Shown here: positions 7,980-43,101 of the stretch, one piece after another
How the letters are laid out: each line of letters starts with the position of its first letter
Numbering within the stretch: the stretch's first letter is position 1
From: Oceanidesulfovibrio marinus
Lineage (GTDB): Bacteria; Desulfobacterota; Desulfovibrionia; Desulfovibrionales; Desulfovibrionaceae
Length of the DNA stretch: 64,000 bases
Direction: 5' to 3'
Assembly: GCF_013085545.1 (NCBI RefSeq)
Contig: NZ_CP039543.1
Span: 1,488,001 to 1,552,000, forward strand
Translations under genes and position numbers: made by a program
Notes under the pieces: model-generated
Seen by the model: the letters and a program-made list of their open reading frames with translations, nothing else
The model's database searches: none
Told to the model about the DNA's origin: nothing

Positions 7980-8084
7980 TAGAGCATATTAACCTTGAAA
8001 AGGTTTAGATGCTCTTATGCATTTACCTGAAACAATAGTAATTTGTTTCAGATGGGAGTCTTGTTGAAAGACGAAAATGCTCTA
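7980..8084 (+). repeat. Element B copy 1 (105-bp MITE-like repeat)
   Basis: It begins TAGAGCAT and ends ATGCTCTA, an 8-bp perfect terminal inverted repeat. Inside are a CTGAAACAA/TTGTTTCAG hairpin and a GTCTT/AAGAC hairpin. A second copy of exactly the same length lies at 29475-29579, with about 13 differences by hand alignment. The copy ends 18 bases before the ATG of the next gene. Confidence 0.9.
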
Positions 8085-8102
8085 GACACCAGGGAGTATC
8101 GT

Positions 8103-8498
8103 ATGGAACGTTTCGCGCGCATCGCGCTTCGCATGGCCCTGCTTGTTCTGCTGGCCGGCGCCCTGCTGGCCGCCGCATGCTCCGGCGAGCACCCCGCCGA
8201 AACCAACGCGACCAATCAGACTGGCCAGACCGGGGCGATGGACGAAGCCCCCACGGGCGTTCCCGGCATGCCGGACAACATCAACCTTGTCTGCGGCGAC
8301 AACATGCCGGTCACAGCCGAGCCCACCATGCTGCCGCTCCAGCTGCACGTAGGCGAGGACGCCTACGACGTCAGCGCGGAGCAGACGCCGCTGGGCATGG
8401 ATTTCGTGGGCAAGGACATTGTGCTCTCCATGAAGGAAAAGGAGATCACCCTGCTGCTGGGTGAGAGGACCTACAACTGCCGGCAGGTTGAAGAGTAG
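8103..8498 (+). CDS. Lipoprotein with divergent MliC-like domain
   Basis: The 131-residue protein has a signal peptide and lipobox (LLAAAC, lipid-modified Cys26), so it is an envelope lipoprotein. After a Thr/Asn-rich linker the domain runs from a Cys (NLVCGDN) to a terminal Cys (RTYNC), the same two-cysteine frame as the next gene's MliC-like domain but with low similarity. MliC proteins inhibit C-type lysozyme; that role here is inference. AGGGAG lies 6 bases before the ATG, directly behind element B. Confidence 0.7.
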   Translation: MERFARIALRMALLVLLAGALLAAACSGEHPAETNATNQTGQTGAMDEAPTGVPGMPDNINLVCGDNMPVTAEPTMLPLQLHVGEDAYDVSAEQTPLGMDFVGKDIVLSMKEKEITLLLGERTYNCRQVEE

Positions 8499-8616: not shown

Positions 8617-8677
8617 GAAATATCTGCTTTTGAGATGACTTTTAGTCTGAATTTCTACGAGACTGATGGGTTATGCC

Positions 8678-9067
8678 ATGAAACGAATTGCCACGGCCTG
8701 CCTCCTGCTCGCGCTGCTTCTGCCCCTGGGCGGCTGCGGCGACTCCCCCGAAGACACCTCTTCGCAGTCGGCCATCGAAGACTCCCGCGTGGTGGACGAG
8801 GACAACCAGACCTCGCCGGATCTGCCCGACGAGGTCGCCTACATCTGCGAGAACAAGGACGGCGAAGAGGTCATCGAGCTGCTGGCGGATTTCTCGGCCG
8901 AGCCGCTGCTCCTGCGCATCGAGGATTCGACGTTCAAACTCGACCGCGTCGAGTCGGCCTCCGGTTCCAGATACGAGACCGATGGCATAGTCTTCTGGAT
9001 CAAGGGCAGCGAGGCCATGCTCACCATGCGCGGCAGTGATTTCCACTGCAGCACGGCCACGGACTGA
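8678..9067 (+). CDS. MliC-type lysozyme inhibitor-like lipoprotein
   Basis: The 129-residue protein has a short signal peptide and lipobox (LPLGGC, Cys20). The C-terminal domain carries the MliC pattern: a Cys after a short strand (YICENKDG), then ASGSRYETDGIVFWIKG and a closing Cys (FHC). Family members are outer-membrane-anchored inhibitors of C-type lysozymes. The start is ATG 8678, which gives a clean signal peptide; ATG 8666 would add four residues. It lies in tandem with a more diverged copy upstream. Confidence 0.8.
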   Translation: MKRIATACLLLALLLPLGGCGDSPEDTSSQSAIEDSRVVDEDNQTSPDLPDEVAYICENKDGEEVIELLADFSAEPLLLRIEDSTFKLDRVESASGSRYETDGIVFWIKGSEAMLTMRGSDFHCSTATD

Positions 9068-9122: not shown

Positions 9123-9497
9123 TCAGGCTTGCGCGCGCTCGGCAGCCCGGCGCACGGACTCCACGAACTCCTTGATCTTGAAGGGCTTGGGGAAGAAGTC
9201 GAAGACCTCGCCGCGTAGCGCCTCGATGGCGGTGTTCAGATGGGCGAACGCCGTGATCATTATGACCTGGCTTTTGGGCGCAAGACTCTTGATCGTCTTG
9301 AGCACCTCCATGCCGTCGATGCCCTTCATCTTCAGGTCCGTCACGACCACCTCGAAGCTCTTTTCCCGGAAACGATCCAGGGCCTTGGCAGGATCGACGA
9401 ACGTCTCCACCTCGAAACCGGCCGCTTCCAGATGATACTTCGACATGTCGCCAACAACCTTCTCGTCGTCAATGATCATAACCGCCGGCTTACTCAT
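9123..9497 (-). CDS. Single-domain response regulator
   Basis: The 124-residue protein is only a receiver domain: acidic pair IIDDE (10-12), phospho-acceptor Asp54 in VVTDLK, the Thr/Ala switch region (MITAF), and Lys in FPKPFK. There is no output domain, so it must act by protein contact or pass phosphate on. Its ATG overlaps the kinase stop by 8 bases. It is the last gene of the four-gene operon 13610-9123 and very likely the partner of the adjacent kinase. Confidence 0.92.
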   Translation of the reverse strand: MSKPAVMIIDDEKVVGDMSKYHLEAAGFEVETFVDPAKALDRFREKSFEVVVTDLKMKGIDGMEVLKTIKSLAPKSQVIMITAFAHLNTAIEALRGEVFDFFPKPFKIKEFVESVRRAAERAQA

Positions 9498-10902
9498 CCG
9501 TGTCCTCCATCTGCGGTGTCGCGGGCAGGTGGATCTCAAAAGTCGTCCCTTTGTCCACCTCGCTGCTCGCGGTAATGGTTCCCGAGTGGTTCTTTACTAT
9601 TCCGTAGCTTACTGAAAGGCCCAGGCCCGTGCCGTCCACCCCCTTGGTGGAGAAGAACGGGTCGAAAATGTGGCTGAGCGTCTCCGGGGACATGCCCTTC
9701 CCGGTGTCCTCGATAACGATATGCACCTCGTCGCGCTTCTCCGTGGTCGTGGTTCGTATCGTCAGGTCCTGCCCCGGCTTCATGGCCTGGATGGCGTTGG
9801 TGATGATGTTCACGAAGACCTGGTTGATCTGGTGCTTGTCCATGTTCACGGTGGGGATGCCGGAGTCGAGGTCGAGGTGCACCTCGATGTCCGAGACGTC
9901 GAGCATGTTCTGGACCAGGCCGAGGGTGCGATTGATGACTTCATTGATGTCGCCCGGGCTGAAGGAGGCCACCTTGGGCTTGGCGAAGTCGAGCAGGTTG
10001 ACCACGATGGCGCGGATGCGCTCGCACTCGCCCAGAACCTGATCCATGAACTCGATGCGCTTCTCCCGCGGCAGCATGTCGTACATCTCCTGGTAGGTCT
10101 GGGCGATCATGGAGATGTTGTTCAGCGGGTTGGTTATCTCGTGCGCCACGCCGGCCGTGAGCACGCCCAGGGAGCCCAGCTTTTTCGACTGCACCAGCTC
10201 GTCCTCGCGCAGGCGCAGCTCCTGGGACATGCTGTTCATGGCTGTGATCACCGTGCCCATCTCGTCGTCCGGTACCTTGCCGTCGATGATCCGGAAGCGC
10301 CCCTTGGAGATGTCCCTGGCCAGCATGGTCACCTTCTTCATGGAAGAGAAGATGCGGCGGTAGATAAGCGGCGTGAGGAATACGGCAAGCACCAGGAATA
10401 TCAGGAAGGACGCCAGCATGCCGCGCTTTGCCTTGGTGATGATCTTGTCGATCTTGGCCCGCTCCTCCCGCGTCAACCGGGTCGAAAGCTCCAGAAGCCG
10501 TCTGCCGAACTCCCGCAGGGTGGTTTCGGCCACGACATCCCGCGTGCCGGACTCGGCAATGAGCTGGGCTTCGTGCTCGTATTGGCTCAGGGAGTTTCGC
10601 AGCGCCTGATACTTGGCCTCGCCGATGGCCGGAATCATCGCGTCGCTGAAACTGTCCAGGGTTTTGCCGGCGGCCTTGATTATGGAGAGTATGTCCCGCA
10701 TGGCCTGGTCGTCCTTGAACAGGAAATAGTTCTTCTCGTACAGGCGCATTTGCAGGAACGAGGCGTTGAGCCCCTCCTGAATCTCCATGTACCGGCTCGA
10801 TGTGGTGAGCGTGCCGACATCGTGCACGGCGAACATGCCCATGAGAGCAAGCAGGCCGATGATGATCACGCCGTGGAGGATGAGGGTGCGTTTAATCGTC
10901 AT
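9490..10902 (-). CDS. Sensor histidine kinase (4-helix-bundle sensor, HAMP)
   Basis: The 470-residue membrane kinase has TM1 at about 8-26, a helical periplasmic sensor (31-160), TM2 at 162-181, HAMP at about 180-232, the H-box VAHEITNPLNN with His254, and an ATPase domain with DTGKGM, FFSTK and GTGLGLS. The sensor has the look of a four-helix bundle as in chemoreceptors. The start overlaps the stop of the upstream DUF202-array gene by 11 bases, and its stop overlaps the regulator. The operon suggests it senses or controls the state of the two array proteins. Confidence 0.92.
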   Translation of the reverse strand: MTIKRTLILHGVIIIGLLALMGMFAVHDVGTLTTSSRYMEIQEGLNASFLQMRLYEKNYFLFKDDQAMRDILSIIKAAGKTLDSFSDAMIPAIGEAKYQALRNSLSQYEHEAQLIAESGTRDVVAETTLREFGRRLLELSTRLTREERAKIDKIITKAKRGMLASFLIFLVLAVFLTPLIYRRIFSSMKKVTMLARDISKGRFRIIDGKVPDDEMGTVITAMNSMSQELRLREDELVQSKKLGSLGVLTAGVAHEITNPLNNISMIAQTYQEMYDMLPREKRIEFMDQVLGECERIRAIVVNLLDFAKPKVASFSPGDINEVINRTLGLVQNMLDVSDIEVHLDLDSGIPTVNMDKHQINQVFVNIITNAIQAMKPGQDLTIRTTTTEKRDEVHIVIEDTGKGMSPETLSHIFDPFFSTKGVDGTGLGLSVSYGIVKNHSGTITASSEVDKGTTFEIHLPATPQMEDTDE

Positions 10903-12127
10903 AGTCTTCGTACCGGAGGCACCGCGGCGTTTCGGAGTACTCCCTGCGCACCGGCCAGTACCAGATGGCGCCGTCGATGAGCATGCCCAGGCCCGCGAGG
11001 ATGAGCAATCCATCCAGAAGACTCAGCGGACTGAGGCCGAAGTATGTTAGCAAACCAAGACCGAACGTGAAAACGGCGGCGCCTGTGCGGAAAAAGGCCA
11101 AGCCGGTCCGCGCTCTTGCGGCCAGGGTCCGGTAGCAGGCCAGGATGGTCCGTTGCGCGGCCAGGACATTGCGCTCCCGAGCCAGGGTGATGCGCTCCCT
11201 GTAGCCGCCGCGTGGTTCGACAACCGTGGAGTACAGGCCCAGGGAGTCGCCTAGCCGGCCGAGCATCGTGCGCTTCATGGGCCGGCCGTTGGCCGGGTCG
11301 TGCAGCTCGATGAAGTGGAACTCCTCCAAAAAGTACACCACGGCCGAGGTGGCCTCCACCAGGTTCTGATCCGAGATGTGCCGCCACGACCGGCGCAGGC
11401 GGGTGTACGAGAAGATGGCCACGGTGGCCAGCGTGGCTCCGGCCACCACAAGGAGCCAAAGCGCCGGCTTGGGGATGATCGGATTGTCCAGACGCAGCAG
11501 GCTGTTGCCCATACCGATGAGACCCAGCCCCCACCGCAGGCTGTTGAGCCAGGTCCGGCCGCAGGCGAGATTGGTGCGCTGGCAGGCCAGCTTGGTCCGC
11601 CACAGGGCCATGGTGTTGCGCCAGTAGGCCATGGTCGTGCGCTGGATGCCCACCGGGCCGTTGGTGTCGCGCATGGCAAAGTCCTGCGCGTACCAGCCAA
11701 TCTCCTCCCGCAGGCAGGCCAGGAACCGTTTGGGCCGGCCCGGGAAGAGCTCTTCGATCTCGGCCTTGGCAGCGCCGTCGTCGAACTCGCTGATGGCGAA
11801 GGTCAGGACATCGTGCACGCGGCAGACAGGAAACCACAGCCCGCGGGCCGGTCCTTCCGCCTGAAAGGCCAAACGGGCCAGATCGTCCGGCACGGGCGGA
11901 CGCTCGTCGTACGTCAGCGTGTCCAGGCCGCTGTACGTTGCCAGAGCGCCGCGCAGGGTGGACCGGGCAAGGCCGAGCTTCTGCCGGAAGTAGACCTCGG
12001 GATGGATGCCGTCGACGCGCCAGGCTGCATCGGCGGCTGCGAGGTCGCCCCGGCTGATGACGCCATCCTCGGCCAGCGAGGCATACGGCGCCGCGGCGGA
12101 AGAAAGCGTTGCGTCAGGGTTGTCCAT
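10892..12127 (-). CDS. Membrane protein: GspE-N/MshEN-like domain plus two DUF202-like heptad arrays
   Basis: 411 residues. Residues 20-130 resemble the N-terminal domain of type II secretion/MshE ATPases (LGLARSTLRGALATYSGL, then a VPV-type strand pair), a fold that can bind c-di-GMP. Array 1 has Arg at 163, 170, 177, 184, 191 and 198; array 2 at 312, 319, 326, 333, 340 and 347, exactly seven apart, with RT-x-LA consensus. Each array leads into hydrophobic, probably membrane segments (about 199-240 and 350-392). This matches DUF202 but with doubled, longer arrays. No ATPase domain is present. It overlaps both neighbours. Function unknown. Confidence 0.75.
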   Translation of the reverse strand: MDNPDATLSSAAAPYASLAEDGVISRGDLAAADAAWRVDGIHPEVYFRQKLGLARSTLRGALATYSGLDTLTYDERPPVPDDLARLAFQAEGPARGLWFPVCRVHDVLTFAISEFDDGAAKAEIEELFPGRPKRFLACLREEIGWYAQDFAMRDTNGPVGIQRTTMAYWRNTMALWRTKLACQRTNLACGRTWLNSLRWGLGLIGMGNSLLRLDNPIIPKPALWLLVVAGATLATVAIFSYTRLRRSWRHISDQNLVEATSAVVYFLEEFHFIELHDPANGRPMKRTMLGRLGDSLGLYSTVVEPRGGYRERITLARERNVLAAQRTILACYRTLAARARTGLAFFRTGAAVFTFGLGLLTYFGLSPLSLLDGLLILAGLGMLIDGAIWYWPVRREYSETPRCLRYEDYDD

Positions 12128-13610
12128 GTTCCAGCTCGAAAGTGGTCCATTGTCCGGGCGGCTTGGTGTAGTCGGGGATGTCGATCTCCATGCCCGGTTC
12201 GCAGTAGGAAAGCTGCCAGCGGTTGCGACGCGCCGTGCGGTGCCAGAGGAAACCGTCGGCGAGCAGCAGCAGGCCGATGCAGAGAATGGTGGAGTCGAAA
12301 ATAATCCAGCCGGGGGTGTGGTGGGGGCTGGTCAGCAGCAGGCCCAGACCCACGGCCACGAAGTTCACACCGGTGCGGATGTAGGCGAACCCGGTTCTGG
12401 AGCAGGCAAGGCTCGTGCGGAAACGGGACATCACGTTGCGGCGTTCTGCCAGCAGCGTGCGTTCCAGAGCCAGACCCGTGGAGCCCCAGATGCCTTCGCT
12501 GCACCCGGGCGAGATCAGAGGAATGGAGCGGCTGCGCAGGCTGTTTTCCTCCAGCACCGGCGGCGTGAGCATGCTCCAGGCGCTGGTCTTCTCGCCTGCG
12601 CGGTGCGCTTCGGTCAGGCTGGTGCGGCCGGCGCCGTGGCCGGAAAGGTACCAGCTCAGCCCTTCCAGAATGAGAATGACGCCCACCACGAGCAGGCCGA
12701 TATCCACCACGTCCATGGGATGGGCGTGGATTCTGCGCATCAGGGCCGTGCCAAGACCGGTAAGGGCGATGCCTGTCCGCACCAGGGCCATGCCCGTGCG
12801 GGACTTGGCCATGACGGTCCGGAAATGGGCCTGCCGGGTGCGCTCCATGGCCAGCTCGGTGCGCTCCAGCGCCAGAAAACGGCGGCGCATGACCGGCGAG
12901 TGGCGCTCGACCTCCTCCATCCACTGCGCCGCGCCAGGAACAGGACCGCTACGGCTGATGCGGATGCGTCCCTGGTCGAAAACCGCCACGGGCACTGTCA
13001 CGTCCGGTCCGGGAGGCTCCGGAGGAGCCAGCCTCTTGCGCGCCAGCTTCCTGGCCGGGAGGTACCAGGTGAGCCCCTCCGAGGCGAGCACCACGCCGCA
13101 GATCGCCAGAACTGCCTCCGGCACGATGATCCAGCCGGCTCCGAAGACCTTGAGCAGCATCATAGCAATGGCGATAAGCGCCAGGCCGGTGCGCAGCATG
13201 GCCAGGCCGGTACGGCCCTTGGCAAGAAGGGTGCGGTAGCTGGAAAGCTGCGAGCGGTGCGCGGCGAGAAAGGTGCGCGTCCGCGCCAGGAAGGTGCGCG
13301 CCGCCACCACAGGAAAGCCGGGGTTGAGATCCTCGGCATGGTCGATGAAACGCTGGATCGCCTCTGCGCCGGCAGCCGAGATGGAGACGTCCGCAACGCC
13401 GCACATCTCTTGCGCCTCGCGGCGTACGGCCTCCTGGTTCTGCCGGCACGTCGCAACCCAGGCCCAGTCGCCGTCCCTTTTGAGCGGCACCCAGCCCTTG
13501 TCGCGCAGCGTTTCGAAATCGAGCGCCTCGGCCAGGGATTCCGGCGGGGCTATCGCCTCGTCGAAGTACACTGTGGCCGGGACCGCGCGCTGGTTTGTAA
13601 CTTGATCCAC
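12114..13610 (-). CDS. Membrane protein: GspE-N/MshEN-like domain plus three DUF202-like heptad arrays
   Basis: 498 residues. The N-terminus (about 15-95) looks like a GspE/MshEN N-domain (KGWVPLKRDGDWAWVAT). Three arrays follow with Arg exactly seven residues apart: 105-112-119-126-133-140, 243-250-257-264-271-278, and 384-391-398-405-412. Each is followed by two hydrophobic segments ending in a W-Y/W-H aromatic pair. It is the first gene of the operon and overlaps the next by 14 bases. It is homologous in architecture to that gene, suggesting duplication and partnership. No catalytic motif was seen. Confidence 0.75.
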   Translation of the reverse strand: MDQVTNQRAVPATVYFDEAIAPPESLAEALDFETLRDKGWVPLKRDGDWAWVATCRQNQEAVRREAQEMCGVADVSISAAGAEAIQRFIDHAEDLNPGFPVVAARTFLARTRTFLAAHRSQLSSYRTLLAKGRTGLAMLRTGLALIAIAMMLLKVFGAGWIIVPEAVLAICGVVLASEGLTWYLPARKLARKRLAPPEPPGPDVTVPVAVFDQGRIRISRSGPVPGAAQWMEEVERHSPVMRRRFLALERTELAMERTRQAHFRTVMAKSRTGMALVRTGIALTGLGTALMRRIHAHPMDVVDIGLLVVGVILILEGLSWYLSGHGAGRTSLTEAHRAGEKTSAWSMLTPPVLEENSLRSRSIPLISPGCSEGIWGSTGLALERTLLAERRNVMSRFRTSLACSRTGFAYIRTGVNFVAVGLGLLLTSPHHTPGWIIFDSTILCIGLLLLADGFLWHRTARRNRWQLSYCEPGMEIDIPDYTKPPGQWTTFELEHGQP

Positions 13611-14227
13611 GTGTTCCTCGATGGGAATGAAAACAGGCTCGAGTCCACGGAGTCCCCAAGGGCAAGGCAGGCGTCGAACCAGGACGCGGACCGTACGAAT
13701 GGGGATATACGGCCCGCGCCGCCGCCATACGGCGGGCTGGGCAGGTTTTGTTGTCTAGACCAAGGCCTGTTGTGCGTCAACGGCGTGACAGGATCTTGCT
13801 CGTACTCTCTATGGGACGGTTCCTCCACCGGCTCCATGCTCAGCTTAAAAGTATCACTATTCCGACAAGATATATAGATGTATACAATTTGTTAATGAAA
13901 TCTGCGAACCGAATACAGGCTGCACAGAACCGCCACCTAACGAAACCGCCGCCAAAGGCAGTGACGCTGCCCGGCTCGGGAGACGCAATTCCGATCAAAG
14001 TAATGGAGGAATCGACTTGAGCTTCCTGGTCGCACAGGATACATGGGGATTTTGCGGAATGGCCAATCCACGTCCGTACGGCGCATTTGAAAGCTCTCCC
14101 CGGCACTGAAACTCCATGTTGCCGCACCCCATACCGGGCTTGCCTTGAAGGAAACGTGGATCGGGGTGGCCTGAAAATCCTGCAGCGGCTTCAGGTTCCG
14201 GTCCGGAAAGTGTGGCAGGCCGACGCC
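13611..14227. other. 617-bp divergent intergenic region
   Basis: It separates the DUF202-array operon (-) from a hybrid kinase (+), so it should hold promoters for both. The stretch 13840-13910 is clearly AT-richer than its surroundings (TATATAGATG, TATACAAT), the likeliest promoter zone. Short ORFs here have poor codon use and no ribosome sites. No riboswitch or tRNA was recognised. Confidence 0.5.
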
Positions 14228-16453
<2,226 letters not shown>

Positions 16454-42657: not shown

Positions 42658-43101
42658 CTACTTGCCGGGCCGGACCGTGAGCACGGGGATGGGAGAGCTC
42701 TTGACGACCTTCTCGGCCACGGAACCGAAAAGGATGAGGTCGATGCCGGTGCGGCCATGAGTGCCCATGACGATCATGTCGGCCTTCTCGTCCTTGGCGA
42801 CCTTGAGGATCTCCTCGGCGGCGTAGCCGGTGGCGACCTTGCCGGTGGCCTTGACGCCTTCGAAGTGCTCGGACAGGAAGTTGTCCATGCTCTTTTCCGC
42901 GCCGGTCACGATCTCGCCCACAAAGTTCTCGATGGACGTGGGCGGCACGTGGAAACCGACATACTGGGACAGCGAGGGCGCCGCATAGAGCACCACGATC
43001 TCGGCGCCGAATGCGTTGGCCATGGTCTTGGCCGTTTCGGCGACGGACGGGCTGAACTCGGAAAAGTCGACGGCGCAAAGAATTTTTTGGACCTGTTTCA
43101 T
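42658..43101 (-). CDS. Universal stress protein (UspA family)
   Basis: The 147-residue protein has the Usp fold: ILCAVDFSEFS at the start and GTHGRTGIDLILFGSVAEKVV with the ATP-binding G-x2-G-x9-G-[ST]-type motif near the end. Start ATG 43101 (GTG 43104 also possible) with AAGGGG upstream. It is a single-gene unit with its own promoter and terminator. Confidence 0.94.
   Translation of the reverse strand: MKQVQKILCAVDFSEFSPSVAETAKTMANAFGAEIVVLYAAPSLSQYVGFHVPPTSIENFVGEIVTGAEKSMDNFLSEHFEGVKATGKVATGYAAEEILKVAKDEKADMIVMGTHGRTGIDLILFGSVAEKVVKSSPIPVLTVRPGK

Follow-up and report, generated by a model that had tools for sequence, protein, structure and literature searches.

We report a four-gene operon of Oceanidesulfovibrio marinus, located in a 64,000-nucleotide stretch of contig NZ_CP039543.1 (positions 1,488,001 to 1,552,000; hereafter the window), in which two adjacent proteins, P1 and P2, carry three and two DUF202 modules, respectively, each with an array of arginines spaced exactly seven residues apart, and are encoded together with a sensor histidine kinase and a stand-alone receiver. 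The operon is not an oddity of this strain, and the count of five modules, distributed as 3+2, is fixed. Based on these features, we propose that P1 and P2 may assemble into a pseudo-pentameric, arginine-lined channel with a small oxyanion as its cargo, gated by the kinase and receiver, a reading to which we assign a probability of about 0.4.

Arginine arrays and DUF202 modules in one operon

The four genes lie head to tail on the minus strand in the order P1 (12114..13610; 498 residues, GTG start), P2 (10892..12127; 411 residues), kinase (9490..10902) and receiver (9123..9497; 124 residues), and overlap by 14, 11, and 8 bases in turn. P1 consists of an MshEN_C-like N-domain and three DUF202 array modules, P2 of a full MshEN-like N-domain and two such modules, all on the same (minus) strand. 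The first module of P1 (13041..13298, residues 105-190) carries Arg 105/112/119/126/133/140 and is predicted to form a hairpin of helices H105-156 and H162-190; the second (12591..12905, residues 236-340) carries Arg 236/243/250/257/264/271/278 (predicted hairpin H239-293/H300-340) and the third (12213..12497, residues 372-466) Arg 384/391/398/405/412 (predicted hairpin H372-427/H433-466). The first module of P2 (11384..11653, residues 159-248) contains Arg 163/170/177/184/191/198 (predicted hairpin H159-211/H220-248), and the second (10937..11203, residues 309-397) Arg 312/319/326/333/340/347 (predicted hairpin H309-363/H369-397). The exactly seven-spaced runs are therefore 105-140 (six arginines), 236-278 (seven) and 384-412 (five) in P1, and 163-198 and 312-347 (six each) in P2. 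When each protein was shuffled 20,000 times with its composition kept, a run of at least five arose 48 times for P1 and 63 times for P2, compared with the three and two such runs observed. The five arrays in two adjacent proteins that an earlier reading of the sequence (the first-pass annotation) had described are thus confirmed, with five to seven arginines each, as is its description of one overlapping operon with a sensor kinase and an output-less receiver.

The DUF202 identity claimed in the same annotation also holds. P1 matches the Pfam family (PF02656) in three stretches at 47.9 bits, above the cut-off of 23.4, and P2 in two stretches at 21.7 bits, slightly below it; profile searches agree: of 78 modules taken from relatives, 73 have a DUF202 match at E 0.01, and the modules match ordinary DUF202 with 99.1% probability. 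In all, the source genome has five DUF202 matches at E 0.1, every one of them in P1 or P2. The arginines of the arrays are nearly invariant: among 54 P1 sequences, 17 array Arg columns have conservation values of 0.96-1.00 (mean 0.995), compared with 0.388 for other arginines and 0.414 for all columns, and the corresponding means among 50 P2 sequences are 0.988, 0.389, and 0.406. Overall, array positions are occupied by arginine in 1506 of 1518 cells and by lysine in one. The first-pass annotation had further held that these arrays are both longer than those of known DUF202 proteins and repeated. The repetition stands, the greater length does not: among 20 distinct ordinary single-DUF202 proteins, a set chosen by match to the module profile and hence biased towards array-like members, 19 carry an Arg heptad run of 3-7 ahead of TM1 (the first transmembrane helix) and one (L013) carries none, so that it is the multi-array make-up, not array length, that sets P1 and P2 apart. 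Two further proteins were dropped from this set, L012, which repeats L034, and L083, a cut-off long array.

The kinase contains HAMP, HisKA, and HATPase domains (Pfam), and two hydrophobic stretches, assigned by eye as transmembrane helices, flank an N-terminal segment without a Pfam match; the H-box is present in 61 of 62 neighbour kinases. The receiver (Pfam Response_reg, 90 bits) has D10, D11, D54, T82, and K104, and a Pfam search found no output domain in it. In an alignment of this receiver with 60 neighbours, the three aspartates are present in all 61 rows, T82 in 60 and K104 in 57, the remainder being gaps. The catalytic domains of a sensor kinase and the acid pocket, phospho-Asp, Thr, and Lys of a receiver are all in place, and the key residues are common to CheY-like stand-alone receivers and NtrB/AtoS-type kinases. 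In contrast to CheY-like receivers, the likely target here would be a membrane complex, not DNA or the flagellar motor.

A fixed count of three plus two modules

A single-module profile, which presupposes no architecture, was searched against two overlapping sets, 297 genomes from the order and 395 from the phylum, and found multi-module loci in 17 genomes, the source genome included. Fifteen of these have 3+2 modules in one locus. The others are G006, with 3+1 modules, and G301, whose modules are spread over two contigs together with one additional module piece; we left it out of the 3+2 count. In all 17 the kinase and then the receiver follow directly downstream of P2. The first-pass annotation had allowed that the gene order might prove peculiar to this strain, with disrupted arrays in close relatives, or that no DUF202 match might be found; neither is the case, and the order is kept in relatives.

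A scan of named genomes with a three-module query, which for that reason cannot reveal P2 without P1, yielded 154 relatives, the best 80 of which form our set of named loci. This set overlaps the first (G006 is L122 and G292 is L170, for example), and the two counts are not independent. Seventy-four of the 80 loci are 3+2, one is 3+3+2, two are 3+1 (L122 and, through a frameshift, L182) and three break off just behind P1. By title they belong to Desulfobacterota, including the cable bacterium Electronema, to many Nitrospirota and to an Acidithiobacillus, and further to a gammaproteobacterial metagenome-assembled genome (MAG) and MAGs labelled Thermoleophilia and Actinomycetes. The order of the modules is preserved as strictly as their number: each of the 370 modules of the 74 loci finds its closest counterpart from another genome in the module with the same number. 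Modules in the same position share 53-64% identity on average, those in different positions 28-42%. The kinase and receiver lie directly downstream of P2 in 58 of the 74; two loci end after the kinase and four end within 1.2 kb.

Three variants deserve mention in their own right. In G006 (L018:7654-8628, the L122 locus), P2 is missing its first module and part of its second array, through either a deletion or an assembly collapse. L141:5821-10476 has two tandem P1 genes ahead of P2, giving the 3+3+2 arrangement. An apparent fusion of P2 to the kinase in L182 was rejected, the second module being out of frame through a frameshift.

A proposed receiver-gated channel and its alternatives

In the mechanism that we tentatively favor, one P1 with its three modules and one P2 with its two would assemble into a pseudo-pentamer, in which the five first helices would form a cytoplasmic coiled-coil vestibule lined with 5-7 rings of Arg and would run on into the membrane as a pore, in the manner of the five TM1 helices of the yeast VTC complex. 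Of the species that might be bound or conducted, a small oxyanion is more likely than polyphosphate. The kinase would read an extracytoplasmic cue and phosphorylate the receiver, which could then dock on the complex from the cytoplasm and either open or close the channel.

The alignment-based models are fairly confident (predicted local distance difference test 83.6 and predicted template modelling score 0.80 for P1; 85.5 and 0.68 for P2), and each module is modelled as a helical hairpin whose first helix, 52-56 residues long, comprises the array and TM1 without a break, the membrane-embedded portion being assigned by eye from the sequence. The conserved face of this helix is centered 10-25 degrees off the arginines, which are flanked by Leu, Ala, and Thr. 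On general coiled-coil grounds, a four-residue interface of this kind, with a polar center, would suit a barrel of at least five helices rather than a dimer. The first-pass annotation had suggested that the arginine face might lie on the membrane surface; an inward face is preferred because the conserved side lies so close to the arginines and because array and TM1 form one continuous predicted helix, although the arrays may still bind lipid.

In seven loci, a single module stands behind a long array and is followed by the same kinase and receiver. Six of these arrays have 22-38 heptads (L019, L060, L102, L103, L108, and L110); the seventh, L059, is frameshifted and fragmented, with 14 and 18 heptads in two pieces; it comes from a genome 43% complete and was used only as a weak example of a long array. 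Array length differs widely among the relatives and the Arg spacing stays constant at seven; the side opposite the arginines is mostly E/D, E/N, or K/G in the long arrays, which were selected as Arg runs, so that their Arg conservation arises by construction, although the P1 and P2 values are unaffected. In L019:6984-8087, L108:3287-4393, and L110:6864-7805, the membrane hairpin is preceded by 36, 38, and 30 Arg heptads, respectively, without interruption and in most cases of the form RT-x-LA. Six further single-module arrays of 11-17 heptads (L099, L104, L105, L106, L109, and L111) have no such adjoining kinase, and a second genomic context is seen in L099:12172-12894, L105, L109, and L115, where single-module arrays lie near a cytidylate-kinase-like/BON protein.

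In three genomes, a DUF202 protein with 12 heptads carries a fused receiver at its C-terminal end (L107:5726-6778, L112:6436-7470, and L113:2645-3697), which we regard as the strongest indication that the DUF202 complex is the target of the stand-alone receiver. These fusions bear directly on an alternative in which P1 and P2 would not conduct at all and would instead be an upstream sensor or scaffold, their arginine coiled coils binding a ligand (an oxyanion, a nucleotide, or anionic lipid) and signaling to the kinase. Most loci indeed have the kinase immediately behind P2, MshEN-like domains of other systems have regulatory roles in the accounts consulted in part, and the 12-38-heptad arrays of the relatives resemble cytoplasmic rods more than pores. 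However, the fusion partner of array proteins is the receiver and not the kinase, the sole apparent P2-kinase fusion is the L182 frameshift, and a count of five modules would call for a closed assembly. We consider a sensor or scaffold unlikely, although it survives better than the other alternatives.

The comparison with VTC supplies a further argument for a channel. In the portions of the structural work available to us (PMC9911596), yeast VTC is a pentamer with a Vtc1:Vtc3:Vtc4 ratio of 3:1:1. Its five TM1 helices enclose a channel whose lining includes K24/R31 (Vtc1), K694/K698/R705/R709 (Vtc3) and K622/R629 (Vtc4), and which is narrowest at R31, R709, and R629; the Vtc1 and Vtc4 pairs are basic residues seven apart, and DUF202 is listed, in sources likewise seen in part, in Vtc subunits. 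VTC and the operon share a DUF202 domain, a total of five modules and basic residues seven apart, which lie on the first helix of the pore in VTC and on the first predicted helix of each module here. The differences are that P1 and P2 distribute their modules as 3+2 over two chains, carry 5-7 Arg heptads before and into TM1, and have two-component partners in their operon. The Pfam matches of the four operon proteins include neither the VTC polymerase nor an SPX domain; since these features and the three-helix subunit were looked for and not found, we do not file P1 and P2 as members of VTC.

At the level of sequence, a small module profile searched against the Protein Data Bank up to E 10 gave only four matches, all to Vtc1 and all below significance (E 0.54-0.84), with the second-last array Arg aligned on R31, a register that was lost with a larger profile. 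With a profile built from ordinary DUF202 proteins, seven of 29 matches were Vtc sequences (E 0.32-2.1), the best match overall being a cytochrome bd subunit at 0.024, and P1 alone against the same sequences gave one chance match. As the direct matches are non-significant, the link to VTC rests on the DUF202 assignment, the module number and the spacing.

Several observations weigh against the proposed channel. None of the VTC sequence matches reaches significance (E 0.32-2.1), and A7, the larger module profile, gave a single chance match in the Protein Data Bank and no VTC. The models have two long helices per module, compared with three transmembrane helices per Vtc subunit (PMC9911596, in part), and they cover monomers, so that a P1:P2 assembly can only be inferred. 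Foldseek gave 501 matches for P1 and 467 for P2, and neither the 50 listed in each case nor the 50 listed by VIA for each protein include a VTC chain; we do not weigh this absence either way, because helical hairpins attract many unrelated bundles. In VTC itself, K24A/R31A raises in-vitro activity and abolishes the vacuolar store (PMC9911596, in part). In ten of the 74 loci with 3+2 modules, no kinase follows P2 directly even though the locus continues; among them, L169 has a kinase about 2 kb further on, and L187 and L193 have one upstream. The 3+1 make-up of G006/L122 departs from the five-module count, the operon is absent from the one same-genus genome searched and is thus patchy, and the fused receiver of L113 has Asn at the phospho-Asp site.

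A different possibility is that the operon belongs to a stress-response membrane machine, in which a channel or carrier would be one part and a dikinase would modify either its substrate or the complex. Besides the kinase and receiver, the commonest neighbor of the named loci is a phosphoenolpyruvate (PEP)-synthase-like dikinase (PPDK_N/PEP-utilizers), found near 46 of the 80, followed by Alph_Pro_TM (25), TauE (24), and Usp (20); the dikinase also adjoins the three receiver-fused DUF202 genes, and these neighbors point to stress and perhaps to sulfur. The accessible text of one study reports that deletion of yidH leaves E. coli sensitive to H2O2, with little NADPH and much iron (PMC4054840). 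The neighborhood nevertheless varies between loci, and tblastn found no PPDK-like, TauE, or Alph_Pro_TM relative in the window and a single Usp relative at 42670-43095, about 29 kb off. Such a machine strikes us as distinctly improbable. The dikinase has a PPDK_N and a mobile His domain, and about 300 residues at its C-terminal end match no Pfam family; the PEP-binding barrel was not found by Pfam in the three scanned. L145:10485-13055 is an example, L145 holding three copies.

VTC moves polyphosphate, according to the partly available accounts, and the VTC-like domain, the module number and the heptad-spaced basic residues could suggest that P1 and P2 are a bacterial conduit carrying polyphosphate across the membrane; the first-pass annotation had likewise named polyphosphate as a possible partner. 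Yet the carrier genomes nearly all lack the enzymes that were sought: PPK1 and PPK2 each occur in one of the 17 multi-module genomes (G351 in both cases; G292, also searched, is 81% complete), the VTC polymerase domain PF09359 occurs in none, and the source genome has none of the three. The absence of PPK1 is not specific to carriers, PPK1 being uncommon across the order (15 of 101 genomes). The near-exclusive use of arginine in the arrays also argues against such a conduit, for which we see very little chance.

Control by cyclic di-GMP (c-di-GMP) through the N-domains is the least credible alternative. The first-pass annotation rightly described these domains as MshEN-like and free of any ATPase: no ATPase domain is among the Pfam matches of P1 and P2. 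The P1 N-domain (13332..13580, residues 11-93) corresponds to the C-terminal half of the MshEN/GspE-N fold, with a Pfam MshEN score of 28.4 bits against a cut-off of 23.1 and a match confined to residues 64-145 of 5htl_A (VIA Z 9.8, root-mean-square deviation 2.4 over 82 residues). The P2 N-domain (11675..12091, residues 13-151) has no Pfam MshEN match and is modelled with the full fold, aligning with 5htl_B at VIA Z 13.5 (deviation 3.4 over 137 residues; Foldseek E 2.4e-4). In the MshEN c-di-GMP receptor, as far as the available text goes, a tandem 24-residue motif binds the nucleotide, mainly within MshEN_N, residues 1-64 (PMC5013675). Neither the strict motif nor a relaxed pattern devised in this analysis was found in any of the 54 P1 or 50 P2 sequences, and c-di-GMP binding, which the first-pass annotation had entertained, is for that reason unlikely. 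The P1 and P2 domains thus have the fold of the MshEN, GspE-N, and XpsE-N domains but neither a detected ATPase domain nor the c-di-GMP residues.

Relation to other DUF202 proteins and flanking genes

The fixed number five, the link to VTC and the receiver fusion go beyond the first-pass annotation. They also invite a broader claim, which we hold to be doubtful: that the operon may represent a new bacterial signal output, a pseudo-pentameric 3+2 DUF202 channel lined by arginines, which a phosphorylated receiver would gate directly, whose cytoplasmic vestibule would extend to as many as 38 heptads in relatives, and whose polymerase-bearing eukaryotic cousin would be VTC. If true, two-component signaling would here be coupled to a pore in the membrane instead of to DNA. 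The sources consulted, in part, place DUF202 proteins in bacteria, archaea, and eukaryotes (there as the pore part of VTC), and the open-licence literature searched contained no established DUF202 function outside VTC. Five ordered modules, near-invariant arginines and a neighboring or fused receiver therefore offer a testable model for bacterial DUF202 function.

The order also contains many single-module DUF202 proteins of the YidH type, E. coli YidH being a DUF202 protein. They share the domain of the P1 and P2 modules, with one module and no MshEN domain seen, as opposed to the multi-module P1 and P2. YidH has been a candidate D-alanine exporter, and in the available part of that report D-alanine levels with YidH were like those of the host (PMC10299036). 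The accessible portions of the open-licence literature on DUF202, VTC, MshEN, and YidH (including PMC7283521, PMC12388464, PMC4400040, and PMC4602095) contain no description of this system, and none was found in that on the gene neighborhood or on kinase-gated anion channels; the parts seen of PMC10434189 and PMC6393860 concern only other DUF numbers.

Upstream of P1 and in divergent orientation lies a gene for a hybrid histidine kinase with its own receiver (14087-16453). Just downstream of the operon, on the opposite strand, a small lipoprotein-like gene (8666-9067) matches MliC, a lysozyme inhibitor, and a second such gene on that strand (8043-8498), without a Pfam match, resembles it by eye.

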